From the NCBI GenBank assembly GCA_003650925.1, contig QMSP01000019.1, forward strand, positions 1 through 38,360: 38,360 nucleotides of DNA. Direction: 5' to 3'. The stretch is from Thermoprotei archaeon (GTDB lineage Archaea > Thermoproteota > Thermoprotei > QMSL01). Of the stretch, positions 5,429 through 29,665 are shown piece after piece (the stretch's first letter is position 1; each line of letters opens with the position of its first letter). Position numbers and translations under genes: made by a program. The notes under the pieces were generated by a model, which was not told the DNA's origin, made no database searches, and saw only the letters and a list, made by a program, of their open reading frames with translations.

Positions 5429-7058
5429 GGAGGCTTGTAGGCGATTAGCCTTAGGAGATCCAGAGCCTTACGAGAAGAAGCTCAAGGTAGGGTTAGCCCT
5501 AGCATGGCTCCCTCTGATGAGCCTTATATTGCCTAGTCTCATTCCCATGCCTGCTGAAGGAGTTGAGCTTGTGCTTACCATAGCTCTAGCAATAATTCCT
5601 TCATGCCTCATAATATCAGGCTACATGCCAGTATTGAAACTAAGGAGTCACTTATCGAGTCTAGAGCATGAAGCCCCCTTCGCGATATTAATGATTAACG
5701 TAGGCGTTCACGCTGGCCTGCCTCCACTAAGAGCCTTCGAGGAGCTTGCCAAGCTTGACGTTCTCAAGGCTATAAGCTTTGAGGTCAGACGCATCCTAAG
5801 GGATTCATGCCTGTATAGGCGTCATCTAAGCGAGCAATTGGCTGTAGAGGCTAAGCAGGCTGCAGGCACTTGGGCTAAGCTTCTTAGAGCCTTGGTGAGC
5901 CTTGAGAGAATCGGTGGGGATCCTAGGCTGGTACTTCGTGATCTAATGCGGGAGACTCTTAGGGATCTAAGGGTTCACTACGAGTCCTTAGCCCGAAGGT
6001 TCCAGTCCATGATTAGCGCCTCTAACGTCCTCTTCGGTGCCATGCCCATGATGCTGAGCGTGCTCTTCACTTTGCTGGCTTCTGAAGCTGTGATCTCGAT
6101 GGTTGTAGGCTTCATGATCCTGAATGCTCTCATGGCTACACTCTACCTAATGACTGTTGATATGCAGATTCCAAGAACCACATCATTCACACGAACCTAT
6201 GCGAAGATAGTACTAAGATGGTTGCCTCTTGGTATTGGCTTAGGCCTATTAGCCTACATGGGCTTCATTAGAATACCGATAAGCTTGATAGCTCCAAAGG
6301 CTGTTGCGATCTCAATAGGAGCATTAGCCTTCTCTCTACCAGCCTATCTTGAATTCAGATTGCATGCTAGAGTTGTGGATGAGCTCCTAGAGAATTTGCC
6401 TACTGTGCTGAGAGACATAGCTGATGAGGTTGAGAGAGGCTTTTCACCACATCAAGCCCTTGAGAGGCTTTATGAGAATGCCACTTATGGGAAGTTCACG
6501 GATAGGTTCATAGCCCTACTAGTCAAGCGTGCTAGGGTACTAGGCTCACTTAGAGATGCTCTTCGAGGAATAGAGCACTTATTACCCATACAAATGCGCC
6601 TATCCCTCTGGCTTCTAACCTTAGGAGAAGAGTTAGGTGCAAGCTCAGGAGTCTATCACGGACTAGCAGATGCCATGCTTGAATACTATCTAGCCTTAAG
6701 AAGCTTCAAGCGTGGTTGTCAAGGCTATAGGCTTATGGCTTTAGGAATGGTTGCATTAACAATAGGCCTGGTCATAACGCTATTCTCAACTCTAGTGAGC
6801 AGGATAGCCATTGTAGGTCAGCTAGTTAGTAGTGCTGAGGGCCTGGTCTCATTACCCTTCAGCATTGCAAGCCCCGAGCTATTACCTGTGATTAAGGACT
6901 GGGTTTATGCTGGAGTAGCTGTAAACTCACTGATCCTAGCCTTAGTTACAGGTAAGACGTTAGATTGGAGAATTGGTGGCTCATTTAGAGACTTAATTAT
7001 AGTCTCAATAATGCTCCTAGGAACTCTCATGATAGGCTTAATCACTGGCTTACTCTAG
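5415..7058 (+). CDS. TadC/ArlJ/GspF-type polytopic membrane platform protein
   Basis: About 547 residues, forming the membrane platform on which the secretion ATPase acts. Several hydrophobic segments are visible: two near the N-terminus (LPLMSLILPSLIPM, LVLTIALAIIPSCLIISGY), a central group, and a C-terminal group ending LIIVSIMLLGTLMIGLITGLL. Two cytoplasmic T2SSF-like helical domains can be seen, one around INVGVHAGLPPLRAFEELAKL and one around DIADEVERGFSPHQALERLYE, the tandem arrangement usual for the family. The GTG at 5415 is chosen because GGAGGTGA lies 6 nt upstream; a GTG at 5409 abuts that site. It overlaps the ATPase stop and so is co-translated. A degenerate dyad lies at 5993. Confidence 0.92.
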   Translation: MRCIREACRRLALGDPEPYEKKLKVGLALAWLPLMSLILPSLIPMPAEGVELVLTIALAIIPSCLIISGYMPVLKLRSHLSSLEHEAPFAILMINVGVHAGLPPLRAFEELAKLDVLKAISFEVRRILRDSCLYRRHLSEQLAVEAKQAAGTWAKLLRALVSLERIGGDPRLVLRDLMRETLRDLRVHYESLARRFQSMISASNVLFGAMPMMLSVLFTLLASEAVISMVVGFMILNALMATLYLMTVDMQIPRTTSFTRTYAKIVLRWLPLGIGLGLLAYMGFIRIPISLIAPKAVAISIGALAFSLPAYLEFRLHARVVDELLENLPTVLRDIADEVERGFSPHQALERLYENATYGKFTDRFIALLVKRARVLGSLRDALRGIEHLLPIQMRLSLWLLTLGEELGASSGVYHGLADAMLEYYLALRSFKRGCQGYRLMALGMVALTIGLVITLFSTLVSRIAIVGQLVSSAEGLVSLPFSIASPELLPVIKDWVYAGVAVNSLILALVTGKTLDWRIGGSFRDLIIVSIMLLGTLMIGLITGLL

Positions 7059-7242
7059 GCCTAGCTTGAACCTTCTTCTCTGACATCTTCCTTGAATATT
7101 CATCGAGTATTGAAGCTCTGACATACTCTTCAATGAATGTGTCAAGGTTCATGTAGCAAGAGGTGCAGAAGTAGAGGAGCCTGCCGTTAGGAGCATAAAA
7201 TTTTATGAGATTACCCCTTCTACCACAGATAGCACATGACAT
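7042..7242 (-). CDS. Small two-CXXC zinc-finger protein
   Basis: 66 residues. CAICGRRG near the N-terminus and CTSCYMN about 25 residues later supply four cysteines for a treble-clef or zinc-ribbon site; the C-terminal half is helical and basic. Such small proteins often act as DNA-binding or adaptor factors; no specific role can be given. It is convergent with the TadC-type gene and overlaps its last 17 nt. It marks the left border of a cargo stretch (7.0-10.7 kb) that lacks the 12-bp dyads found in the backbone. Confidence 0.75.
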   Translation of the reverse strand: MSCAICGRRGNLIKFYAPNGRLLYFCTSCYMNLDTFIEEYVRASILDEYSRKMSEKKVQARPRVSQ

Positions 7243-7309
7243 ACAAATGTGAGTAAGTGTGACTCAAGCTTAACCCTAATGCTAAGATTTAAGAAAAAGA
7301 AGGGGAAGT

Positions 7310-7585
7310 TTATGTTTGTACCTTGGGCCATAATGGTGAATTCCTTGTTATCATGTACTTTACTGACTTTTTATTCTTATATACCTCGATGTATCCCCTC
7401 TCTTCAAGTACTCTTAGGTACTGATTCACTAAGCCATAATAATAGCCATTCTGTGGAAGGTCTAGAATCTTTGCAATATCCTTAGGTCTAAAGACAGCAC
7501 TATTCCCCCTATGCTTTGCTAAGAGGCGCTGTAAAGCATCGATAACATCAACTAAGTCTATACTCGGGACCCCGCCCGCCTTCAT
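7310..7585 (-). CDS. Winged-helix DNA-binding protein, starts with a GGCGGGG box
   Basis: About 91 residues. After MKAGGVPS comes a compact winged-helix fold: helix VIDALQRLLAKHRG, then FRPKDIAKILDLPQNGYYYGLVNQYLRVLEERG as the helix-turn-helix, and IEVYKNKKSVKYMI as the wing. It is likely a transcription regulator. A TTG one codon earlier (7588) is also possible, but ATG is preferred; a TATA-like CTTTAAGC lies about 22 nt upstream on this strand. Its first codons contain GCGGGCGGGG, the box also found at the starts of five genes between 30.1 and 37.0 kb, suggesting shared control or a shared origin of the 5' end. The rest of the protein resembles none of those five. Confidence 0.8.
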   Translation of the reverse strand: MKAGGVPSIDLVDVIDALQRLLAKHRGNSAVFRPKDIAKILDLPQNGYYYGLVNQYLRVLEERGYIEVYKNKKSVKYMITRNSPLWPKVQT

Positions 7586-7692
7586 CAATAAGTGAGCTCT
7601 GAAGCTTAAAGAACGGATGTAATTCTAAGTTATTACACCATGGAGTTTAAAGTTAAGGTTATATTTGTTAAAGTACCTTTCAAAAAGTAGAT

Positions 7693-8595
7693 ATGAGAGC
7701 TCTTATAGACTCCTTAAGATCGAGGAAGGAGATGGTAGCATACTTCGATAAGCACGAATATCCAGCAACATCATGGATTCCTCTTAATCTCGCTGAAAGT
7801 TTGAAGGATGAACTTGAAAGAGAAGGGTTTAAGCCACTTGGAGCACGAGAGTTAAGAGACTGGATGATAGAAGTAATAGAAGATCAAAGAGCTCAAAATA
7901 CACTGGTGGTTTTTCTACAAGATGTAGCCCCAGATACGATTCTTGATAGGTTCACTCCTGATGCATTAGTCAGACAATATTTAGACCATGGCGGATGTAT
8001 ACTATGGCTTGGCGATATACCATTCTGGTACAGGGGTAAGGAAGGAGAAGAGAAACCAGAGCCCATATACGGGAACCTCGTGCCGATCAACTTGCTAGGA
8101 GTAATACCAGTGATCACGTACACTCCAACAGATGTTGTAGAGATAACTAAAGAAGGCAGAAAGCTAGGTCTGACTATAAAGTGGACTTCACATAGGCCCG
8201 TTATTTACATGAAGGATAAGTCACATGACTTTATACCATTGGCGAAATCTAAGCCTCTTATTGCGCATTGTGTGCCGTTAACGATAGAGGGAAGGCCTGT
8301 TAAGGAGGTTATACGAGAGCCCTCCCTTCTTGGTAGGATACTTCGCTATTTTAGAGGACGTTTTCAATTAGGAGTTGCTGAAGTCGAGGTAAGGTCTGAA
8401 GCTGAGAGAGGAAAGAAAAGACCTACTGTGTTTATTACAGGCGAGAAGCTACCTTGTGCCTGGATTAAAAAGTTTGGTGATGGCATGTTCATTAGATTAT
8501 GGGATATGCCCATAAGAAGTGAACTTGTAAATTACTACACACGGATAATAGCGACTGAAATACTCCGAATTACTAGGAGGAAGTCTCTTAAATAG
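7693..8595 (+). CDS. Unknown 300-residue cytoplasmic protein
   Basis: 300 residues without signal peptide or membrane helices. The N-terminal half reads as an alpha/beta Rossmann-like unit: NTLVVFLQDVAPDTIL, a helix, then YLDHGGCILWLGDIPFWYRG. The strand plus GD-IPFW loop recalls flavodoxin- or GATase-like folds seen in some signalling or effector proteins, but no catalytic motif can be assigned. The C-terminal half contains TVFITGEKLPCAWIKKFGDGMFIRLWD. A TATA-like GTTATATTTG lies about 32 nt before the ATG and no ribosome site is seen, consistent with a leaderless message. It lies in the dyad-free cargo stretch and could be defence or stress cargo; this is inference. Confidence 0.8.
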   Translation: MRALIDSLRSRKEMVAYFDKHEYPATSWIPLNLAESLKDELEREGFKPLGARELRDWMIEVIEDQRAQNTLVVFLQDVAPDTILDRFTPDALVRQYLDHGGCILWLGDIPFWYRGKEGEEKPEPIYGNLVPINLLGVIPVITYTPTDVVEITKEGRKLGLTIKWTSHRPVIYMKDKSHDFIPLAKSKPLIAHCVPLTIEGRPVKEVIREPSLLGRILRYFRGRFQLGVAEVEVRSEAERGKKRPTVFITGEKLPCAWIKKFGDGMFIRLWDMPIRSELVNYYTRIIATEILRITRRKSLK

Positions 8596-10784: not shown

Positions 10785-11558
10785 TTAAACCTTCGGGGAA
10801 TGCCTACAACGATACCGATGATACCTAGCATGCTTGTGAACGTGAACAATTGCCTTGGGAAGGCATACAGGAACGTAGGCAACAAGCCTGCAACGCCTGC
10901 CACCAGTAGGAATGACAAGTCCACTCTCAATAAGCTTAGCAAGACATTTTTGAGTGTATCTAAGCGAATAACAGACCTTCTCAGCTAACTCACGAGCACT
11001 AACAGCCCTACCACGCTCCCTGTAGTAGCAGAGAGCAAGCCAAACCCTAACAAGAGCTCTAAAGCCTACTCCCTCTCGAGAAAGGTCATCGCTACTAAGC
11101 CTACAAATACGCCTAAGCCCTTCAACAAGAACATTAGAAGCCCCATTAGAACTAGGACTATCAGCTCTGGAGCCTGAAAACTCCCAACTCGCAAGACCGT
11201 CACACAACTTATGGTTAAACACGTACATTGTAGCGGGACCTCTACCTACCTTAACTATAAGACCCCATTCCCTAAGCTTCTTAAGATGATAGAGAACAGC
11301 ATTCCGAGTTAAACCAAAAGCCTTCTCAATCTCACGCCTAGTCACTACATCCTTCTCGACCACATATCTCAAAATCTTCAATGTTAGACCGTTCCAACCA
11401 TCTTTGGGCCCACGCTTACGCGATCTCCCAAATTTCTTGCATGAACGTCTTTCGGAGTACCTCCTACTAGTTGCAGATCTCCCAAATTTTCTGAAGGTAG
11501 CAGTCTTATGCTCACTTTTAAGCTTGCATGATTGATGCTTGGAGGCCGCCGCCCGCAT
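10785..11558 (-). CDS. Double winged-helix transcription regulator
   Basis: 257 residues. A basic N-terminal tail of about 55 residues contains KFGRS twice, encoded by a repeated GATCTCCCAAATTT on the plus strand. The first winged helix follows (LTLKILRYVVEKDVVTRREIEKAFGLTRNAVLYHLKKLREWGLIVKV), then a linker, and a second one (SARELAEKVCYSLRYTQKCLAKLIESGLVIPTGG). The C-terminus is His/Arg-rich. The ATG is followed by CGGGCGGCGG, a variant of the GC-rich box at other starts. The last codons run through a half copy of the dispersed dyad. It is divergent from the pilin-like operon at 11630 and may regulate it; that is inferred from position. Confidence 0.8.
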   Translation of the reverse strand: MRAAASKHQSCKLKSEHKTATFRKFGRSATSRRYSERRSCKKFGRSRKRGPKDGWNGLTLKILRYVVEKDVVTRREIEKAFGLTRNAVLYHLKKLREWGLIVKVGRGPATMYVFNHKLCDGLASWEFSGSRADSPSSNGASNVLVEGLRRICRLSSDDLSREGVGFRALVRVWLALCYYRERGRAVSARELAEKVCYSLRYTQKCLAKLIESGLVIPTGGRRCRLVAYVPVCLPKAIVHVHKHARYHRYRCRHSPKV

Positions 11559-13263: not shown

Positions 13264-13676
13264 ATGCTCTTGAGTATGCTCTAGTCTTCACAGGCTTAAT
13301 AGCCTACCTAGTATTAAGCCTAAGCCTTATCACAATACCTGAACCTACGTTTAGCCCAAGGATTTTGTTATCCGCCATAGCCTCGGTAGCTTACAGACCT
13401 ACGAGTGAGGTCACGATAAGACTTTATGCTTCTAAAGACGTTATTGTAGTCATTCATAGTAATGTCATTGAGGTTCAAGGCTATGTTATCAATTATGGCG
13501 AGGTCAAAGACTTCATAAGCTTAGGCATTGTAAAGAGCTATGCTCCTCAAAGGCTAGAGCTTAATGTAGAGCTTAATTCGCTAAGACTTACAGGCCCTAG
13601 ACTCTATGTACTGAAGGTATCATGCCCTAAAGCCGGCCATGTACTTGTTGAAATCATAGAAATTCGAAGGGTATGA
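13260..13676 (+). CDS. Membrane-anchored pilin-like protein, last gene of the operon
   Basis: 138 residues. An N-terminal hydrophobic segment (ALVFTGLIAYLVLSLSLITI) is followed by a beta-rich domain rich in Val/Ile (VIVVIHSNVIEVQGYVINYG). The start overlaps the previous stop by 4 nt. It ends convergently with the HEXXH-type gene, overlapping 23 nt. It is probably another minor filament or surface subunit. Confidence 0.7.
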   Translation: MNALEYALVFTGLIAYLVLSLSLITIPEPTFSPRILLSAIASVAYRPTSEVTIRLYASKDVIVVIHSNVIEVQGYVINYGEVKDFISLGIVKSYAPQRLELNVELNSLRLTGPRLYVLKVSCPKAGHVLVEIIEIRRV

Positions 13677-13983
13677 GTGCTAAGGTTGCTATGAAATACA
13701 GCTTAATGAAAAGATGCAAAGCATTATTGACAGGGAGAAGGAGGATTATGGGAAGATTAATTATAAGATAAGGTGCAAGAGCTACTACCAGCACTTTAAA
13801 CCTTTCCTCCTTAGGAATTTCTGCAAGCCTCTTACCAGTCCAGCCTTCAATATGGACTCTAATGAAAAGACCTAGCTTGATGCAGTATTGCTTCTTGAAG
13901 AGCTTAAGCATGATTATGTGACATGCCTCATGCAGTGGAATGTAGGCTATGTATACTGTAGCTAGGATGAGGAGCTCAAGCAC
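13654..13983 (-). CDS. Small membrane protein with a HEXXH-like zinc protease motif
   Basis: 109 residues. IPLHEACHIIMLKLF contains HEACH inside a membrane segment, as in site-2-protease-like or DUF3267-type zincins. Two further hydrophobic stretches follow (VLVVALAPYLIINLPIILLLPV; LFIKLYFIATLALIPFEFL). The third metal ligand is not evident, so activity is uncertain. The GTG start has a TATA-like TTTAGAGG about 25 nt upstream on this strand. It converges on the pilin-like operon and could process an exported substrate; its promoter lies at the edge of the iteron cluster. Confidence 0.7.
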   Translation of the reverse strand: MLELLILATVYIAYIPLHEACHIIMLKLFKKQYCIKLGLFIRVHIEGWTGKRLAEIPKEERFKVLVVALAPYLIINLPIILLLPVNNALHLFIKLYFIATLALIPFEFL

Positions 13984-14012
13984 ATCTAGATCTCGAACTA
14001 GCCACCTCTAAA

Positions 14013-14424
14013 CTGCTACTCGCCTTCTCAAAATGCGTCTTCATCCTGCTACCCACTTTTAAACTGCTACCTCCTCTTATTGATGCCTTGGATCTGGACT
14101 CGTGAGATAGCCAAAGCACTAGGCATTAGTCCTGAGAAGGCTGGCTGGTTAATGAAGAGACTTGGCTTGAAGCGTAGGCGTGTTAAGGGTCGTAGTCAAT
14201 GGCTTATAGAGCTAGAACTGCTACCTGATGAGCTTAAACAAAAACTGCTACCTCTCATAGAATCTGCTACCCATAATCTGCCACTCAATGGGTCGCAGAA
14301 TTCTGCTACCCATGAGTCAAGAGGTGGCAGTAATCCTGCTATCCATAAACTGCTACTCAAGAGGCCTATTACTCACCAGGTAGCAAAATCACAAACTGCT
14401 ACCCATAGGGGGAACTGCTACCTG
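14013..14424 (+). repeat. Iteron-like direct repeats CTGCTAC(C/T)(C/T)(A/C), candidate replication origin
   Basis: Ten exact CTGCTAC heptamers start at 14013, 14046, 14064, 14218, 14245, 14264, 14303, 14350, 14396 and 14415; most continue as CTGCTACCCA or CTGCTACCTC. Variants lie at 14278 and 14336, and inverted forms at 14323 and 14379. Two copies bracket the TTTTAAA box in front of the helix-turn-helix gene. Inside that gene the repeat is read in all three frames (LLP, SATH, CYL), so the DNA and not the peptide is conserved. This resembles origins embedded in the initiator gene, as in lambda O. Confidence 0.8.
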
Positions 14425-14685
14425 GAGGAGACGGCTGCCTTTAAGGCTAATGACCCTCCTAGGGAGCTATTGAGAATTGTCCATGATTATTTCAAGCATA
14501 ATCATCCAGTCATCGAGAAGGAGAGGGTTAAGGATGTGCTTCAAGACTCGCTTAGGAAGCTTCTTGATGAGCTAATGCCTAGAGGTTATAAGCCTATAGA
14601 GATTGAGAAGGCTGTAGTTCGAGTTATCAAATCATACCGTGACTTGGGCTTTATGGATCTGCTCGGTATTGGTGATGAGCCATGA
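14083..14685 (+). CDS. Helix-turn-helix protein with embedded iterons, candidate replication initiator
   Basis: About 200 residues. The N-terminus (WTREIAKALGISPEKAGWLMKRLGLKRRRVKGRSQWLIE) is a MerR- or Mu-type helix-turn-helix followed by a basic wing. The middle (about 55-125) is low in structure and encoded by the iteron repeats. The C-terminus is helical (RELLRIVHDYFKHN..., EIEKAVVRVIKSYRDLGFMDLL). The ATG follows a TTTTAAA box by about 23 nt, and iterons flank that box, implying autoregulation. No replication family is recognised, so initiator is an inference from iteron architecture; a plain transcription regulator is the alternative. It overlaps the next gene by 4 nt. Confidence 0.8.
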   Translation: MPWIWTREIAKALGISPEKAGWLMKRLGLKRRRVKGRSQWLIELELLPDELKQKLLPLIESATHNLPLNGSQNSATHESRGGSNPAIHKLLLKRPITHQVAKSQTATHRGNCYLEETAAFKANDPPRELLRIVHDYFKHNHPVIEKERVKDVLQDSLRKLLDELMPRGYKPIEIEKAVVRVIKSYRDLGFMDLLGIGDEP

Positions 14686-15392
14686 GGTTATGGCTTCTAT
14701 TGGTACTATTCATGCTCATATCCATAACGCCCATATCCCAAGCTAACGAGCTCTGGCTTATAATCGTTAACCAGTATGGTGAGCCTATTAGCGATAAGGT
14801 TCAGGTGATTGTTATAGGCGGCAGGGCTGAGCCTTATAATGCGACATACTGGTTTGTTAAGACTAATGCCTCGAAGGTTTTGGTCAAAGTCTACCGCCTA
14901 GGCTTATGTGTAGGAGAATTCCAGCTAAGGCCCAATGGCACGTATAGGCTTAGAGTCCTTGTGAGCAATATGCTCATACAAGCTCCTAGAAGTCTGACGA
15001 TTAGGGTTAAGCTTCTTGGAACAAACCAATCATGGTTGCTTACAGGAGAGTCTTCTTACATCCTTGAGGATTTGCCTTGCGGAACCTACGAGTTCGAGAT
15101 CGTAGGCACTGGTTTCAGAAAGGTAATTTACTGGGAGGGCGGCGTTATTAGCATTGGCAGATCCTATGAAGTCGATTTTGAATATATTCTAAAGCTTACG
15201 CCTATTGCACTAGCACCGATAGTCTGTACTGGTGTTTACGAACTCAAGCAAAGGCGTAGAAGGCATAAGCCTAAGAGGGCTAAGCCTAAGCATAAGCCTC
15301 ATAAGCCCAAGGTTAGGCAGAGGGCTAGAAGGCGCGTTAAGGAGGGGGAGCCTCGAACATTAGCTGAAGCACTCTTGATGACTGAAGTCTAG
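14682..15392 (+). CDS. Exported protein with C-terminal membrane anchor and very basic tail
   Basis: 236 residues. Signal peptide LWLLLVLFMLISITPISQA; ectodomain of about 140 residues with NGT and NQS sequons and carboxypeptidase-regulatory-like repeats (YGEPISDKVQVIVIGG; LEDLPCGTYEFEIVGTGFRKV); membrane helix LTPIALAPIVCTGVYEL; then a cytoplasmic tail extremely rich in Lys/Arg/His/Pro with KPK-type repeats. Such a tail could contact nucleic acid or an acidic partner. The start ATG overlaps the previous stop (ATGA) with GGTGATGAGCC upstream. It may form a membrane complex with the next two exported proteins. Confidence 0.8.
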   Translation: MRLWLLLVLFMLISITPISQANELWLIIVNQYGEPISDKVQVIVIGGRAEPYNATYWFVKTNASKVLVKVYRLGLCVGEFQLRPNGTYRLRVLVSNMLIQAPRSLTIRVKLLGTNQSWLLTGESSYILEDLPCGTYEFEIVGTGFRKVIYWEGGVISIGRSYEVDFEYILKLTPIALAPIVCTGVYELKQRRRRHKPKRAKPKHKPHKPKVRQRARRRVKEGEPRTLAEALLMTEV

Positions 15393-15429
15393 TGAGGAGA
15401 CTTCTTTTCTAGCATTATGCCTATACCTC

Positions 15430-16062
15430 ATGAGAGCTTTAAGCCTAGTACTAATGACCCTACTAGCCAGCATCTTCACGCCCAGCCATGCTGGTGAAAT
15501 CGTATGCTTGATACTTAAGCATTCTAAAGTCTATAATGTCCTAGCCCCCTATGAGCGAGTGATAAAGCTCTCAGCTACTCAGGCTTTAAAGCTTGATGTT
15601 GCTGATTATTACGAAACGATTCTAGCCTACTATAAGCTTGCTTATGACTCCATGCTTCATAATCGTCTAGAAGAATGTGCTCGGTATACTGGCATAATGC
15701 TAGCCTTAATGCTTAAGGCTAAGGGTTACTCAGAGGAGCTTGGGCCTAAACTACTCGATATTCTCAATCGCCTAGACTGGAGTAAGGTTAGGCTTTATAA
15801 TGATGATCTCAAGAGGCTAATCAGCTATTGGCTTAATTACAAGCCTAGGGATCTTGAGGACTTTGCCTACACTTATGCCTCAGTATGCTTAAGCCTTCTT
15901 GAACAATTACCATCAGACTCCTTTATTAGAATTCTGTACACACCCAAGCTAAGAGAGCTCTACATCATAAGCCTAGCCTTAATCGTAATCACCTCAGCAT
16001 ATTTCGTCATAAAGCGTGTTAGGGAGGAGGCTGGTGGTGTGAGCTATGAGGGTTATAGGTGA
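15430..16062 (+). CDS. Exported helical protein with C-terminal membrane anchor
   Basis: 210 residues. Signal peptide LSLVLMTLLASIFTPSHA, a helical ectodomain with TPR-like pairs of amphipathic helices (YYETILAYYKLAYDSML; ECARYTGIMLALMLKAKG), and a C-terminal helix ELYIISLALIVITSAYFVI ending in a short basic tail. The helical ectodomain contrasts with the beta-rich proteins nearby. The stop lies 17 nt inside the following gene. Role unknown; probably a subunit of the same membrane assembly. Confidence 0.75.
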   Translation: MRALSLVLMTLLASIFTPSHAGEIVCLILKHSKVYNVLAPYERVIKLSATQALKLDVADYYETILAYYKLAYDSMLHNRLEECARYTGIMLALMLKAKGYSEELGPKLLDILNRLDWSKVRLYNDDLKRLISYWLNYKPRDLEDFAYTYASVCLSLLEQLPSDSFIRILYTPKLRELYIISLALIVITSAYFVIKRVREEAGGVSYEGYR

Positions 16063-17911
16063 TCATACCCCGAACCTTCGGGGAATACTATTAGTTACTT
16101 TACTAGGACTAATTGCATTGAATATCATAGCATGCGCTAAAGCAATTCCTGCCGGCGAGGAGAATTCAACAATATTGATTCTTAAGGCAGTTGATTATGG
16201 CGAGATTAGGCATATTGAGTACATTCCAAAGCCCCTCTATAAGGCTAAGGCCCTACTATGCTCTGAAATTGCTAAAGAACTCTTGCTTAAGGCTCTTTAT
16301 AACATGGAGCTTGATGAGATGAAGTTAAACTTCATTCTTGCATGTAAGCATGATGGCTACTTTTCCGAAACCCCAGATAGTCTAAAGTTTAGTCCTGAAG
16401 CAACCTTCTATGCTACGTGGCTTCTTAAAATGATAGGCTCTATGCCAAAGATTAATGCAAGCTTACTATTAAGCGAGCTGAGGAAAGCTGAGACCTTTGA
16501 CAAAGCCTACTACGTAGTCATGACTCTTAAACTAATAGGCTATAATGTGAGTGAAAGATTACTCCAAGATTTTGACTTAGACTATGCTGTAGCGTGGGTT
16601 AGGAATTCTTCAAGATCAAGCATTAAGGCTACTGCCATGTGGTTATGCTTGTTCAAAGATGGGGAGAAGGCTAAATGGTTGTTAGAGCATGCTCGAGATT
16701 TAGGCGCTAAGGTTCGTGCCAAGCTAGCACTCGGAAACTACTCTTATGAAGATATTACCAGCCTAGACTACTCAGAGTGGTTTAACATCGAGACTCTCAT
16801 CATCTTTAAGCCTGTATTCGTGAATGTAACAATTGTACCAGCTATAGTCGTTAAGGAAGAGCCTAAGATCGTGAATTTAAACATCGTCAAATGGCCTGAT
16901 GAGATTATTAATGATTATGAATTTTCATGGTCGTTAGAGGACAGTAGGATCGTTAGTAGGCTTAAGGCTGACAATCGTCTCCTAACCTTCGTGCATTACA
17001 TAGCTCGTGAGGAAACAGCCTATCTCAAGATTGAGCAGGTTAAATTCGGTAAAATTAATGTGACTTGCATCTATAAGCCGCCCTACGCCTTGAAGCTTTC
17101 AATAGGTGGTCTTGAGTATGAGTTAATGGGCACAGCATATAGGGCGCAGTGGTGCCTAGACGTCCTTTTGACAGGTACCTATAATCTCAAAGCCATCATC
17201 AAGTCCTCAAGAAGCCTTCTAATGGGCGAGGGAGTAGTTAAGCTAAAAGCCTCCTATGAGAGAACACTACTTGATTATGCATGGTTGGGACTTCCACTAT
17301 TATCAACCACTATAGCCTTATGTGGTGCTCCTAGTAGAAGGCGAAGGCTTAGACTAGGCCTACCAGCTGTAGTGATCCAAATAGTTCCTGCTTACTACGC
17401 TTACGAGCTTCTCAAACTTCACCCCTTATGGTTCACCTTAGCCTCTGGAGTTGTACTCCTCATTATAGCACGCTTAATCGATAAGGAAGCTTTAGAAGCC
17501 TGTCTAGGCCACATCATTGTAATTACAGCCCTATGCATGGCTTCAATGCTTACATCAAATCCTATAGTTCTACTGCTTGGTGGTATTGGTTCAGGCTTAT
17601 TCCTAGCCTCAGCCATACTATACCCAAGTGAAAGAGAGCGTACTGAAAGGCTTTACAAGAGCACGATACTAGTCTATAGCCTAGGCATTATGCTTATGGG
17701 CTTGATAAATCAGCTTGCTGTAGAAATAGCCTCCTTCCTCTATGCGCCGGATGAGGCTTTTATTGACTCAATACGCATACAGGCCATGCTCATAGCAGAT
17801 TTAATCGCGCTTACACCAGTAATAGCGCCATTAGTACACTTAGCGAGACTAATACACTCATTTGAAAGAGCAAAAGAAGCTGAGGCTATTGTCAGAGCTA
17901 TTGGAAAGTGA
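16046..17911 (+). CDS. Large protein with exported N-terminal domain and polytopic C-terminus
   Basis: 621 residues. An N-terminal hydrophobic helix (GILLVTLLGLIALNIIACA) exports a roughly 380-residue domain with several NXS/T sequons and helical repeat features (TPEATFYATWLLKMIG-type units). The last 210 residues contain about seven membrane helices. GGTGGTGTGAGC stands before the ATG, which overlaps the preceding gene. The dyad with the longest arms (16068-16083, CCCCGAA/TTCGGGG) lies within the first 12 codons. The size and topology suggest a channel or scaffold subunit of the surface machine; no homology is claimed. Confidence 0.8.
   Translation: MRVIGDHTPNLRGILLVTLLGLIALNIIACAKAIPAGEENSTILILKAVDYGEIRHIEYIPKPLYKAKALLCSEIAKELLLKALYNMELDEMKLNFILACKHDGYFSETPDSLKFSPEATFYATWLLKMIGSMPKINASLLLSELRKAETFDKAYYVVMTLKLIGYNVSERLLQDFDLDYAVAWVRNSSRSSIKATAMWLCLFKDGEKAKWLLEHARDLGAKVRAKLALGNYSYEDITSLDYSEWFNIETLIIFKPVFVNVTIVPAIVVKEEPKIVNLNIVKWPDEIINDYEFSWSLEDSRIVSRLKADNRLLTFVHYIAREETAYLKIEQVKFGKINVTCIYKPPYALKLSIGGLEYELMGTAYRAQWCLDVLLTGTYNLKAIIKSSRSLLMGEGVVKLKASYERTLLDYAWLGLPLLSTTIALCGAPSRRRRLRLGLPAVVIQIVPAYYAYELLKLHPLWFTLASGVVLLIIARLIDKEALEACLGHIIVITALCMASMLTSNPIVLLLGGIGSGLFLASAILYPSERERTERLYKSTILVYSLGIMLMGLINQLAVEIASFLYAPDEAFIDSIRIQAMLIADLIALTPVIAPLVHLARLIHSFERAKEAEAIVRAIGK
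16070..16081 (+). repeat. Dispersed dyad CCGAACCTTCGG, exact copy with extended arms
   Basis: The arms extend to 7 bp (CCCCGAA/TTCGGGG, 16068-16083). It lies 24 nt after a start codon and is read as TPNLRG. Confidence 0.85.
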
Positions 17912-18036
17912 ACGATAGGCTAATAAGACCAATAGGAGCACAGAGAAGTAGATTGTGTGGCTCATGTAAAGTAGTGTATTGTGGTGTTAAGTGCTGTACA
18001 GTATCTTCCCCCTTCTTAAAACTTCTTATTACCTAA
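17908..18036 (+). CDS. Small cysteine-rich ORF, possible zinc knuckle
   Basis: 42 residues starting at a GTG that overlaps the previous TGA (GTGA), the usual layout for coupled translation. Five cysteines cluster as LCGSCKVVYCGVKCC, enough for a metal site. The 3' part overlaps the TATA-like region of the HerA-like gene, and no strong ribosome site is present, so it may be chance. Confidence 0.4.
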   Translation: MNDRLIRPIGAQRSRLCGSCKVVYCGVKCCTVSSPFLKLLIT

Positions 18037-18042
18037 TACTTG

Positions 18043-21000
18043 ATGAGTCTTCAACTACTGGAGTATAAGCTCATACCTAAGGGTAATCTACTCGATTGCA
18101 TAGTCTATAGGCTAGTTGATCGTGGTGAGGAGTATTATCGTGTTCTCAAGCTCTTACGCCTACTTCGTAATCCAAGAGAACTTGCACAAATTGAGACCCT
18201 CTTAGACATGCATCAGGACATCGTATCAGCTTTCAAGCATGAGACTAGAGCTCGGCTGGTCTTGATAGCGGTCTATTCAAAGCGTTTAGGTTTAATTTGG
18301 TGCTATGGCGTAGCTGTGGCTGACAAGGGGCTTGAAGTCGCTAAGGCTTGGGCTGATAAGCTATTTGAAGCTCTAAAAGCCTGCCTTAAAGGTACTTACA
18401 GGCAAGCAGTCTTTAGGGAGCTTACTTATGATGAGGCTTGTGAAGTCGTGAGGATTCTAATGGCTTCAAAGCATGCTGCAGCCATTATTGGCTTGCCAGA
18501 GCCTAGGGAGGCTATGGCTAGACCAGCAAAGACGGTTTACTACTACATTGGAACTCGTATTGTTGAAATGGCTGAGGAGGTTGTTAGAGGCTTATTAGCA
18601 CATGGAGAGGAATTTGCCTATGTAGTGCTTGCTCAAGCAGTACCCCCTGAGCAACTTCACAAGCTCTTAACCAAGGTCTCGAAGCTATGCTCAAAGTATT
18701 CAACTTTTGAAGAGACAGCTAGCCTAGGCTTCTACATGACGATACCCTTCGGCTATACTAGAAGCCTTTCATATACTTCGCATGAAGCTTCGGGGAAGAC
18801 CATAGGCAAGCAAAGGATGGAGACTAGAGCCTATTCACTAAGTGAGAGTGAGGCTAGGCATAGTTCAGAAAGCCATGTAGAATCTAAAGCCGTAAGCGAG
18901 GGTATTGCCGAGAGTGAGGTCCATACTAGAAGTCGAGCCCACACGATAACGCATGGTGAATCCTGGAGTGAGGCTCATACTGAAGCGCATGCTAAGGGAG
19001 TCTTCGAGTCTAGGGGTGGCTTCTCAAGTCATGCTAGGGTAGAAGGCTTTACTTATGGTCAGATTGAGAGTGTAAGCAAGGGCTTAAGCTTAACAGATTA
19101 TGACAAGGCAGTTAAGGAGTATGGTTATCAGGTTAAGACTGAAAGCGAGAGTACTGGAGGGTCTAAGGCTACTAGTCAAAGTGAGAGTTATACTCATTCT
19201 AAGGAGTGGGATGTTGAGGGTGGTGTAGGCTTTAAGGGGCTGATTCATGGTGGGGGTTCTTATGGTGAGAGTGATGCTTGGGGCAAGACCAAGGGTGTTA
19301 CTAAGAGTGAGAGTTGGAGCAAAAGCGAGAGTGTTCAAAGACCTGAGGGTAAGGTTCCCACGTTTACTGAGAGTAAGACTGTAGTTGATTATGGTACAAG
19401 GGAGAGTCCTAAATTACGCACTTACAGTGAGACGAGAGTCTCTGGCTCATCATGGGCTAGAGGGACTTCTGAATCATGGAGTGAGGCTCATACTGTAAAC
19501 CATGGAAGGTTTAGGAGTGAGTCATTTACTGAGGCTGAGTCGATAAGCAGAGGCATAACTAAAAGCCATGTTGAGACTCGAGGAGAATCCAGGGGCGTTA
19601 GTGAAGGTATTAGCAAGGTGCAAGGTAGGGTTCGAAGCTTCGGGGAATCTATTGGTGAGAGTCAAGCTCTAAGTGAGTCAAGAGGCTATAGTGTTAGTGA
19701 AGGAAACATTTATGGTCTAGGCATTTTTCCAGGATTAAGCTTCAGCTACTCAGTTAGGCGATTAGATGAGCTAAAGCGCCTAGCCTACGAGCTCTTGAGG
19801 TTCGAAAGGGATCGTATTGCACAGATGATTTCGCAAGGAGGCTACCATGTCCTATGTGCCATACTAGGTTCTGAGAAGACAATAGCTGTGGCTAAGGCTT
19901 TGATGATCGAAGCCTATACGCCTACGAAGCTTTATCCAGAGCCTCTTAGAGTTATCGAGGGCGATGAGGAATTCCTCTTAAGCGTTAAGACGCTCTCATT
20001 TGACCTAAGGCCGTCAAAGCATCTCATACGCCCATACAAGTACATGAACCTCTACACAGCTACTGAATTGGCTGCTTTAACTCATCCTCCAAGACTTGAA
20101 GCACCTGGATTAGAGGCTATAATGGAGAATATTCCTGAGTTTAGAGTACCACCACCTAAGCACTATGATGTAGAGTTTGGTAATGTTGTTAGTCATGAAC
20201 TTGGTGATGTAACTTCAATACGCTTTGGCATTAACAAAGAGGAGCTCTTACATGCAGGCTTCTTTGGGATAACTAGAAGTGGAAAGACTAATGCAGCACT
20301 AGTCTTTGTTAGTCGTTGTATCAAGGCATTAGGCGCTCGTGCCTTAATCCTCGACTGGAAGCAGGATTGGCGTCGTATTCTAAAAGTCGTCAAGGGTAAG
20401 CTCTTCGTTCTATACCGCTCTGAACCTTCGGGGGAAGCTAGGCCCCTAAGATGGAATCCGCTAGTACCTCCGAGAGGAGTTGATCCAGAAACTTGGCGTG
20501 ATATCGTCATAACGTGGTTCTGTATGACTTATGGCTTAGGTCCAAGAAGCTATACATTACTATGGGAAGTGCTTGATGAGCTTTATGCTGAGAGAGGAAT
20601 TTATGATGGCGATTATAGCAATCCACCAACACTCAAAGACATGTATGAGCGTATCAATGCTATGTATGAGCAGGAGCGTAAGTCGAGAAAAGTCACTTTC
20701 GAACAACTTGACATCTATGTGAAGACTTTAGCAAGGCTTAGATATTACACTCGTGGAAGACTAGCCAAACTCTTCGCCTCAAAAGAGCATACTGATATAA
20801 GCGAGCTACTCTCAGGCGTTACTGTAATTGAGGCTGGTGAGATGGCTGATGTTCATAAGCCATTCATACTGGGCCTACTAGCCCTAAGCGCATTCTACTA
20901 TCGCAAATTCACAGGCCCAAGTGAAGTACCAGAGCTAATAGTGCTTGAGGAGGCTCATCAGGTGGCATTTGACCCAACTGTTAAGGAGATTGCTAGGGAG

Positions 21001-21396
21001 CTTAACATCACAGAGTCTGTATTTGATAAGATGGCTGCAGAATCAGCAGGCTTCAACCAGTATCTAGTCTTCATAGCACAACATCCTGCTACACTATCAA
21101 ATGGTGTGTTAAAGAATCTAGGCTTAATCGTAGTCTTTAAACTAATAGCTGAGGATACAAAGCATCGTGATATCCAGCTCGTAAAAGATATGCTCGTGAG
21201 AGGCACTGAGAGGGCATATATTGAAGTAGCAAGGTTTATTACAAGACTTCCAGTAGGCTGGGCAGTAGTAAGAAAATGTAGAAGTTATGTTTTAATAGAG
21301 CAAGAGCCCGTACTGGTCAAGTGGGATTTATTTGACCAAGAGATTGTAAAAAATAACAAATTCATTAATTTAGTTTTAGGCTCTACCTCTCGCTAA
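18043..21396 (+). CDS. HerA/VirB4-like ATPase with long Ser/Glu/Gly-rich insertion
   Basis: About 1117 residues. The N-terminal 250 residues are alpha/beta. Residues about 255-570 are low-complexity, built of degenerate SES/GES/SEAH units. The C-terminal half is a HerA/FtsK/VirB4-type motor: Walker A GITRSGKT near residue 743 and Walker B LIVLEEAH near 967. The LTHPP...PGLEAI segment before the motor is typical of VirB4/TraG-like conjugation ATPases. It probably pumps DNA or protein through the membrane with the TadA/TadC or exported proteins. The ATG at 18043 follows TTCTTAAAAC by about 24 nt. The final 21 residues after WDLFDQ look added: related tails downstream end near WNLFNV. Confidence 0.9.
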   Translation: MSLQLLEYKLIPKGNLLDCIVYRLVDRGEEYYRVLKLLRLLRNPRELAQIETLLDMHQDIVSAFKHETRARLVLIAVYSKRLGLIWCYGVAVADKGLEVAKAWADKLFEALKACLKGTYRQAVFRELTYDEACEVVRILMASKHAAAIIGLPEPREAMARPAKTVYYYIGTRIVEMAEEVVRGLLAHGEEFAYVVLAQAVPPEQLHKLLTKVSKLCSKYSTFEETASLGFYMTIPFGYTRSLSYTSHEASGKTIGKQRMETRAYSLSESEARHSSESHVESKAVSEGIAESEVHTRSRAHTITHGESWSEAHTEAHAKGVFESRGGFSSHARVEGFTYGQIESVSKGLSLTDYDKAVKEYGYQVKTESESTGGSKATSQSESYTHSKEWDVEGGVGFKGLIHGGGSYGESDAWGKTKGVTKSESWSKSESVQRPEGKVPTFTESKTVVDYGTRESPKLRTYSETRVSGSSWARGTSESWSEAHTVNHGRFRSESFTEAESISRGITKSHVETRGESRGVSEGISKVQGRVRSFGESIGESQALSESRGYSVSEGNIYGLGIFPGLSFSYSVRRLDELKRLAYELLRFERDRIAQMISQGGYHVLCAILGSEKTIAVAKALMIEAYTPTKLYPEPLRVIEGDEEFLLSVKTLSFDLRPSKHLIRPYKYMNLYTATELAALTHPPRLEAPGLEAIMENIPEFRVPPPKHYDVEFGNVVSHELGDVTSIRFGINKEELLHAGFFGITRSGKTNAALVFVSRCIKALGARALILDWKQDWRRILKVVKGKLFVLYRSEPSGEARPLRWNPLVPPRGVDPETWRDIVITWFCMTYGLGPRSYTLLWEVLDELYAERGIYDGDYSNPPTLKDMYERINAMYEQERKSRKVTFEQLDIYVKTLARLRYYTRGRLAKLFASKEHTDISELLSGVTVIEAGEMADVHKPFILGLLALSAFYYRKFTGPSEVPELIVLEEAHQVAFDPTVKEIARELNITESVFDKMAAESAGFNQYLVFIAQHPATLSNGVLKNLGLIVVFKLIAEDTKHRDIQLVKDMLVRGTERAYIEVARFITRLPVGWAVVRKCRSYVLIEQEPVLVKWDLFDQEIVKNNKFINLVLGSTSR
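20420..20431 (+). repeat. Dispersed dyad, one mismatch (CTGAACCTTCGG)
   Basis: In the motor domain of the HerA-like gene, read as SEPSGE, a register different from the TPNLR copies. Confidence 0.6.
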
Positions 21397-28345: not shown

Positions 28346-28504
28346 CAAAGCATTTTGCCTACAGCTATTTTAAGTGAGGGATTAATCTACCCACTCACTT
28401 CAGCCTACTTATTGGGAGGGCTGAGGAAACCTAGTAGTTACTTGGTAGCGACTACCACATGCACGCTTTTAATATGCTTTTGCCAACCACCTCGGGCTCT
28501 ATTA

Positions 28505-29665
28505 GTGCCCAAAATAAGATGCCCAGAATGTGGCTCTGAATGTATTCTGGATGATAAGACTTTCGAGTGGATATGCCCTAACTGTGGTTTGGTGGTTGAC
28601 GATTCTAGGATGGCCCATGACGATTACCACAATATCATATTCATGGACGATTATAGGGGTAGAATTGAGCCTGAGCTCAAAAAGCGATTAAGACGACAAT
28701 GGAAGGAAGCAAGCGATATTGAGCATAAGACGAGAGGTGGCACGAATTACGTAGTAGAGCTTGTCAAGTCTAAACTCAAGGAGCTTATGCCAGCCTATAG
28801 AGAGCTTCTAGACCAAGTAGAGGCTCATAGCCTTAAGGAGCTCTTTAGACACTTCCTCTTCATAACCGGCCTACCTTATGAAGAAGCTAGAGACAAATTC
28901 TTGAAAGCTTGTGAGATGGCTCAAGCTAAGCCTCCGAAGCTTAGGCCTGTCAAAGTCTTAACTCCTTCAGCCTCAAGAGCTAGGCTTAGGATTAGGGATG
29001 CTAGGATTAGAAAGGCCCTAGATGAGGTCAAGGATTCCAAGGTTAGAAAGCTTGTTAGGGCCTTGATGGAAGTTCCCGAGTTCCAGCCTGTGAATATTAA
29101 AGCATTGATAGCAGCCGTAGAACTTTGGCTTAATGGGAGAATTCTGATAAAGGGCTATAGTGATAGAGCCTTTAGACGCTACCTCAAGCTGTTGGAACGC
29201 TTCTCCAGAATGAATGCCTATATCCTAGCTAACCGCTATGGTCTTAAGCCTGAATACATCGCTTTGCTCAAAAAGATTAGTCTTCATGGCGTCCAGGAAT
29301 CAATAAGACGTGGCAAACTGCTCATGCACGCTATTAATGGGCATTCTGGTAGCAACCTGGTAGTGGCTAGCAACCTATACCCTGAACTTGGGGAGACCCA
29401 CCTGAAAGTTATCGCACATTACAAGCGCTACCCAGACTACAAGCGTGGCTGTCTAGTTCTAGGCCTAAAGCCATTAAGCAAGAAAGAGTGGAGAAGGGTT
29501 AAGGCTGACTTAGAGCTTCTCGGTAATCAAGCGTCTGACAGCTCTTTCAGCCTGCTCCCTACTTGGGAAGTGGAGTATGAGTTCAACTTGATCACCCCTT
29601 ATGAGTATCTTACTAGCCCTAATACTGCTGTCAATACCCTCAACATCAAGAAGGATAATGTTTAA
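28505..29665 (+). CDS. TFIIB-type zinc-ribbon protein
   Basis: About 386 residues. RCPECGSECILDDKTFEWICPNCGLVVDD near the N-terminus is a TFB/TFIIB zinc ribbon (CPEC at 6-9, CPNC at 24-27). The rest is helical and basic and does not obviously show two cyclin repeats, so it is not a plain transcription factor B. It may bind RNA polymerase or DNA for element-specific control. An earlier ATG at 28355 would add a non-protein-like, promoter-containing stretch; GTG 28505 follows a CTTTTAATA box by about 36 nt. The last 52 codons overlap the Lsm-like gene on the other strand, which may be an extension after loss of a stop. Confidence 0.75.
   Translation: MPKIRCPECGSECILDDKTFEWICPNCGLVVDDSRMAHDDYHNIIFMDDYRGRIEPELKKRLRRQWKEASDIEHKTRGGTNYVVELVKSKLKELMPAYRELLDQVEAHSLKELFRHFLFITGLPYEEARDKFLKACEMAQAKPPKLRPVKVLTPSASRARLRIRDARIRKALDEVKDSKVRKLVRALMEVPEFQPVNIKALIAAVELWLNGRILIKGYSDRAFRRYLKLLERFSRMNAYILANRYGLKPEYIALLKKISLHGVQESIRRGKLLMHAINGHSGSNLVVASNLYPELGETHLKVIAHYKRYPDYKRGCLVLGLKPLSKKEWRRVKADLELLGNQASDSSFSLLPTWEVEYEFNLITPYEYLTSPNTAVNTLNIKKDNV

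Follow-up and report, generated by a model that had tools for sequence, protein, structure and literature searches.

Origins located inside the coding sequence of the replication initiator are known from RepA_N plasmids and from lambda O. In pSK41 Rep, a RepA_N protein, the Rep boxes recognised by the wHTH domain lie in the central, linker-coding part of the gene for the protein itself (PMC5703833). Iteron origins usually show helical phasing of the repeats and an A+T-rich region (PMC5043065). The clt loci of the FtsK-like Tra proteins of Streptomyces are made up of short direct repeats, one such locus overlapping a tra gene (PMC3583192), and repressors of archaeal viruses commonly regulate themselves (PMC5569661). 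In archaeal autoregulated repressors of mobile elements, a site at the TATA box or start blocks initiation and the regulator controls itself. BldC, a MerR-like wHTH protein of the BldC/Xis type, binds direct repeats and regulates promoters.

The window analysed here is a whole contig, C19 (38,360 bp), of an archaeal genome of 2.14 Mb in 81 contigs. It contains a gene for a 200-aa wHTH protein with an array of short repeats upstream of and within it. The array is real and unusual: its sites form a self-contained set embedded in a regulator gene and are kept in four diverged copies, on contigs C19, C56, C69 and C75 (protein identity 71-75%). We favour autoregulation as its role, and regard an origin or transfer role as the minority reading.

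The locus resembles pSK41 RepA_N and lambda O in having an N-terminal wHTH, repeats in its own linker-coding DNA and a separate C-terminal domain. It differs in that the sites are irregular, unphased and without an A+T-rich unwinding region, that the protein matches none of the known initiator families in sequence, and that the gene is located in a HerA/pilus operon. Like clt, the array consists of short direct repeats able to overlap a transfer gene of a translocase element; the candidate reader is here a separate wHTH protein, and transfer is putative, by analogy. Compared with the archaeal autoregulated repressors, most of the sites lie within coding sequence. BldC shares the predicted small wHTH fold (rmsd 2.7 A over 46 columns, not significant), but its repeats are adjacent, are bound head-to-tail and have their own consensus, AATTXXXX(C), whereas the sites described here are 14-154 bp apart and the protein has an extra linker and C-terminal domain.

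Repeat array, repeat unit and genomic distribution

The features of the locus are listed in Table 1. Ten exact copies of CTGCTAC are found on the + strand, at 14013, 14046, 14064, 14218, 14245, 14264, 14303, 14350, 14396 and 14415, spanning 14013-14421. The first three come before the ATG, and the other seven fall within the coding sequence. Three of the coding copies are read in frame 0 (14218, 14245 and 14350, giving LLP/LLL), three in frame +1 (14264, 14303 and 14396, giving SAT/TAT) and one in frame +2 (14415, giving NCYL). The remainder of the window has five CTGCTAC copies on both strands combined, and in any other 412-bp stretch of the window heptamers reach at most five copies. Shuffling gives an expectation of 7.48 copies per window (both strands), or about 0.04 per 412 bp per strand. 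The initial annotation had reported the same ten copies upstream of and within one gene, read in all three frames, against a chance expectation of about 0.03 on one strand; our recount and shuffles agree with this. It had also placed two copies on either side of a TATA-like box, and the copies at 14046 and 14064 do flank CACTTTTAAA.

Table 1. Coordinates of the features of the wHTH gene, its repeats and its surroundings in the window.
Feature	Position	Strand	Remarks
Gene for 200-aa wHTH protein	14083..14685	+	ORF call; ATG conserved in four paralogs
Putative operon begun by the wHTH gene	14682..21396	+	Three secreted/membrane proteins and a HerA-like DNA translocase
TATA box TTTTAAA	14057..14063	+	26 nt before ATG; identical in four paralogs
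Promoter-proximal site AAACTGCTACCT, between TATA box and start	14061..14072	+	C19, C56, C69
Two additional upstream sites (14013, 14046)	14010..14054	+	In C19 copy only
Intragenic array: seven exact CTGCTAC and CTGCTATC at 14336	14215..14423	+	Consensus RWNCTGCTACCY; three frames
Three weaker opposite-strand sites (14291, 14323, 14379)	14291..14386	-	Imperfect dyads with neighbours
Lone exact CTGCTACC in N-terminal coding part of divergent wHTH gene 10785-11558(-)	11496..11503	-	

When one mismatch is allowed, the array has 14 sites, three of them on the - strand. The inverted sites are kept only in part between the paralogs. Spacing is irregular throughout, and the site at 14013 resembles a local duplication of the promoter segment (13998-14019 compared with 14049-14070, 86%).

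The repeat unit extends beyond the heptamer to about 12 bp, RWNCTGCTACCY. It was defined from C19 and the three paralogs, using sites picked on the 8-mer CTGCTACC alone with at most one mismatch. Outside the searched 8-mer, R at -3, W at -2 and Y at +8 are present in 34 of 34 + strand sites; these sites come from related paralogs and are not independent, and the window's own 11 sites show the same constraint. Farther out the sequence is near-random. Units that agree over about 12 bp and are unrelated on either side resemble binding sites more than products of slippage.

In its strict form, RWWCTGCTACCY, the unit occurs 23 times in the genome and 20 of these are within the four arrays. One of the remaining three is in the C69 copy of a divergent wHTH gene and two are elsewhere. 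Within each array all exact CTGCTACC copies have the same direction, except for one reverse copy in C56. With just three strict sites outside the arrays, one of them in the element's second regulator, we rejected a wide chromosomal regulon. Six other places matching AACTGCTACC were inspected; five are inside ORFs and none has an obvious promoter setting. A REP-like palindrome was also rejected, as GGTRGCAG-N-CTGCYACC occurs once in the genome.

The second regulator is the wHTH gene at 10785-11558 (-), which is divergent from a pilin-like operon. Its lone CTGCTACC is kept in the C69 copy (C69:2840) despite altered flanking codons. In 60 other genomes, the search for arrays of the same repeat gave one isolated pair in one genome, and around HerA relatives in other genomes the stretches compared had no comparable CTGCTACC array. 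A fragment from another genome of the class has five GTGCTACT copies in both orientations at 710-833, near the 5' end of a ribbon-helix-helix-like gene. TTTTAA immediately precedes one of them, and the fragment also has a related HerA gene.

It could be argued that no partner binds the repeats, and that neutral or selfish micro-repeats have multiplied where a disordered linker tolerates them. Most copies do lie in a disordered linker of variable length, a duplication of the promoter segment is visible in C19, and spacing is irregular. However, the units share a fixed 12-bp window and not longer flanks, unlike slippage products. They occur in three frames with some sites on the opposite strand, the promoter site is kept in four copies, and there is no spread elsewhere in the genome. 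We find such an explanation rather improbable.

Constraint on the DNA and the encoded protein

Codon choice does not explain the repeats: seven CTGCTAC copies are observed in the coding sequence, while synonymous resampling of the same protein gives an expectation of 0.42. The resampling used the element's own codon usage, and in 20,000 trials more than four copies were never obtained. An excess over synonymous resampling was found in the other three paralogs as well (P up to 7e-4). CTG, found in both LLP peptides, is used less than any other leucine codon in the element (69 of 1017). The repeat cores are more alike than the remaining linker in six of six paralog pairs (0.91 versus 0.80 for C19/C56), a comparison that may be inflated since aligners favour repeats, and in which the non-core stretch for C19 reaches into the sequence encoding the C-terminal part. 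At the two LLP sites, synonymous conservation exceeds the background only moderately, and C75 has drifted to CTACTACC. As the two best-aligned sites are in conserved LLP codons, peptide constraint contributes. Conservation of the repeats despite changing peptide had been proposed as a check, and the repeats are indeed kept across paralogs whose peptides differ. Loss of the repeats from close relatives with an intact gene would have spoken against the proposal, and all three paralogs keep them.

The ATG at 14083 is the likely start rather than the TTG at 14080, since this TTG is not conserved and is CTG in one paralog. AlphaFold2, run on the single sequence without an alignment, predicts a wHTH domain at residues 1-60 (pLDDT 79-89), a disordered linker at about residues 64-121 (pLDDT below 50) and a C-terminal three-helix domain at about residues 127-187. 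The array covers residues about 46-114, so that most of its intragenic part encodes the predicted linker, the length of which varies among the paralogs.

The wHTH protein had nothing above threshold in Pfam, NCBIfam or PHROGs. Relatives were absent from 80 other genomes of the class, GTDB contigs, IMG/VR, PLSDB and phage records, collections that may omit records near the window's own genome. Foldseek returned generic wHTH proteins, BldC/Xis among them, none of them significant (best E 0.087). As for membership of the BldC family, the fold is similar but the Foldseek E value is 0.13 or worse, and the array repeats are non-adjacent. A Mu-type DNA-binding domain (PF02316, HTH_Tnp_Mu_1), which the sequence had led us to suspect, was rejected, having no match in the genome at E<=10.

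The repeats might also act in the mRNA, through hairpins or through binding of a protein or sRNA, instead of in DNA. In three of the four copies the sense strand folds more strongly than shuffled sequences (z -3.3, -2.5 and -2.9), and exact copies are mostly on the sense strand. The predicted folds differ between the copies, however, and in the fourth copy folding is not significant (z -0.9). Rfam gives no match, and the promoter-proximal site would be upstream of a leaderless transcript. A conserved RNA structure was rejected because of the differing paralog folds and the lack of an Rfam match, and we regard action in the mRNA as highly improbable.

Promoter, putative operon and proposed autoregulation

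The four copies become alignable at the promoter. In each of them the conserved block starts at TTTTAAA with nothing alignable upstream, and the distance from the start of the TATA box to the ATG is 26-27 nt. In C75 the promoter-proximal site reads CCGCTACC. Allowing up to one mismatch, a genome-wide search for the pattern TTTWWAANTGCTACC finds these four promoters only. TTTTAAACtGCTACC is present in four of four paralogs, a conserved site overlapping promoter elements as in an autoregulated operator. This geometry suggests that the promoter is leaderless and that the site between its TATA box and the ATG is an operator.

The ORFs of the putative operon overlap or are separated by short gaps, and the wHTH gene overlaps the next one. 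The HerA-like ATPase (18040-21396) has a DUF87/HerA match and a partial match to CedD. It is 1118 aa long with a long serine-rich stretch, and its match to NF033849 ('serine-rich protein') is strong (5.9e-159), partial and below the cutoff.

A copy of the repeat behind the TATA box points first to autoregulation, and we infer that the protein binds the sites, that the genes form an operon, that transcription is leaderless and that it is repressed. In brief, the gene's own wHTH product would bind the array of approximately 12-bp sites. On the site between the TATA box and the start it would block TBP, TFB or RNA polymerase and thereby repress its own leaderless promoter, and this repression would extend to the downstream HerA/pilus operon. 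The linker-coding sites may recruit extra protein, and the larger nucleoprotein complex so formed would make repression stronger or set its threshold, the linker-coding stretch being where changes in the DNA would cost the protein least.

We think it likely that the array is bound by the product of its own gene. This is favoured by the site directly after TTTTAAA in four of four paralogs with otherwise different upstream sequences, and by the concentration of 20 of the 23 strict sites in the four arrays with one more in the second regulator. The excess over codon choice, together with the constraint outside the 8-mer and the core identity, speaks for it as well, as do the predicted wHTH with its disordered linker and the position as first gene of a putative operon. 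It should be noted that co-occurrence of gene and array within one genome is trivial, since most sites are inside the gene, and that the generic, non-significant Foldseek matches count against self-binding. That the sites serve to autoregulate the first gene of a HerA/Ups-like pilus operon we suggest tentatively; 7-10 intragenic sites are more than simple autorepression needs.

On contig C29, a diverged copy of the element retains the operon but lacks the wHTH gene and the array. In place of the wHTH gene, it has DprA-like and phosphoribosyltransferase-like genes (assigned by eye). At its operon start, TTTAAAA precedes a perfect inverted repeat, CATTGTAGCA/TGCTACAATG, with a 5-nt gap, which possibly is a different operator in the same position. 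A TATA-like box and perfect inverted repeat at an operon start without gene and array favour autoregulation. The C29 HerA gene contains stops, and this copy may therefore be decaying. Further TGCTAC/GTAGCA copies are found beside CATTGTAGCA/TGCTACAATG in the C29 stretch 8071-8243.

If self-binding is true, the four diverged natural versions in one genome would be a ready system in which to ask how binding sites persist within coding DNA by being parked in a disordered linker, and a control point would be exposed for an uncharacterised archaeal HerA/Ups-like pilus element.

Origin and transfer readings and the mobile element

The initial annotation took the array for iterons in an initiator gene, recalling lambda O, and for a candidate replication origin. 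Such a gene would be a replication initiator with the origin in its own coding sequence; its wHTH would bind the linker-coding iterons, and the C-terminal domain would recruit the host replication machinery upon excision of the element. We consider this origin reading unlikely, and the proposed roles of the two domains equally so. The multiple short direct repeats of an iteron origin are present (ten exact copies in 412 bp), with the gene as a candidate initiator only. The modelled protein has the three-part layout of pSK41 Rep, with a wHTH N-terminal domain, an origin-coded linker and a C-terminal domain (PMC5703833; AlphaFold2 model), and it is in layout only that the prediction matches RepA_N. 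The element is multi-copy and integrase-bearing, and Pfam recognises no other initiator among the 38 window proteins scanned.

Against an origin, the sites are out of helical phase (Rayleigh test P 0.47-0.93 in the four arrays). The A+T content in 60-bp windows is 0.47-0.60 in the 14.0-14.7 kb region, compared with a window mean of 0.57, leaving no A+T-rich segment there; the maximum, 0.67, is at 13703. Near 12-14 kb the cumulative GC skew, suggested earlier as a check, shows a small shift that coincides with a switch in gene strand and is confounded by it; the skew is uninformative here and gave no origin-like signal specific to 14.2 kb. Pfam scans of the four paralogs gave no match to RepA_N (PF06970) at E up to 10. 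The wHTH gene sits in a secretion/HerA operon, and C29 keeps this operon without the gene, though the C29 copy is degenerate. Of the earlier proposal, the repeat set at the nucleic-acid level in a wHTH gene of a mobile element is supported, as is the layout of wHTH, repeat-coded linker and C-terminal domain to which the lambda O comparison pointed; the origin claim is not supported. Irregular unphased spacing, no adjacent A+T-rich segment and no known initiator family argue against a replication origin.

The array could instead be a cis-acting transfer site, at which the wHTH protein would mark the element and set the direction in which the operon's own HerA-like translocase is loaded. The exact CTGCTACC copies are co-oriented within the arrays, apart from the reverse copy in C56. 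The partial CedD match of the HerA-like ATPase and the presence of UpsF-like and VirB11/FlaI-like proteins are compatible with transfer, as is the clt precedent. The oriented short repeats are near a translocase gene, the HerA-like gene being in the same putative operon and not immediately adjacent. However, transfer by the element is proposed from analogy, and in Streptomyces the translocase itself reads the repeats. C29 has a HerA gene without an array, though with stops in that gene. We judge a transfer site to be quite improbable.

A replication or HerA-transfer origin located inside the linker-coding part of its reader's gene, in a multi-copy archaeal integrative element, is possible but doubtful. 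Such an origin would be an archaeal counterpart of RepA_N/lambda O or of clt, based on an unrelated wHTH protein. Both the origin and the transfer readings are testable on a fragment of approximately 750 bp.

Elsewhere in the window are genes for a VirB11/FlaI-like ATPase, an UpsF-like membrane protein, pilin-like proteins and a tyrosine recombinase. The element resembles the new type IV pili-like systems and integrated elements of archaeal dark-matter islands (PMC4158269). A circular plasmid was rejected for the window, as it has no terminal overlap. Directly upstream of the wHTH promoter is a hot spot of variable cargo, which in the window is a zincin-like peptidase gene (13676-14056). Other genes are found at this position in C56 (stretch 930-2570) and C29 (stretch 6080-8240), and nothing in C69. 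The idea that the cargo is flanked by repeat copies was rejected, no left-hand copy having been found. Further degraded copies of the element are present on C15, C29 and C64 of the same genome, some with in-frame stops in HerA, which suggests repeated integration and decay. A TFIIB-type zinc ribbon is present in the protein encoded at 28355-29665 of the window, which may be a basal transcription factor supplied by the element.
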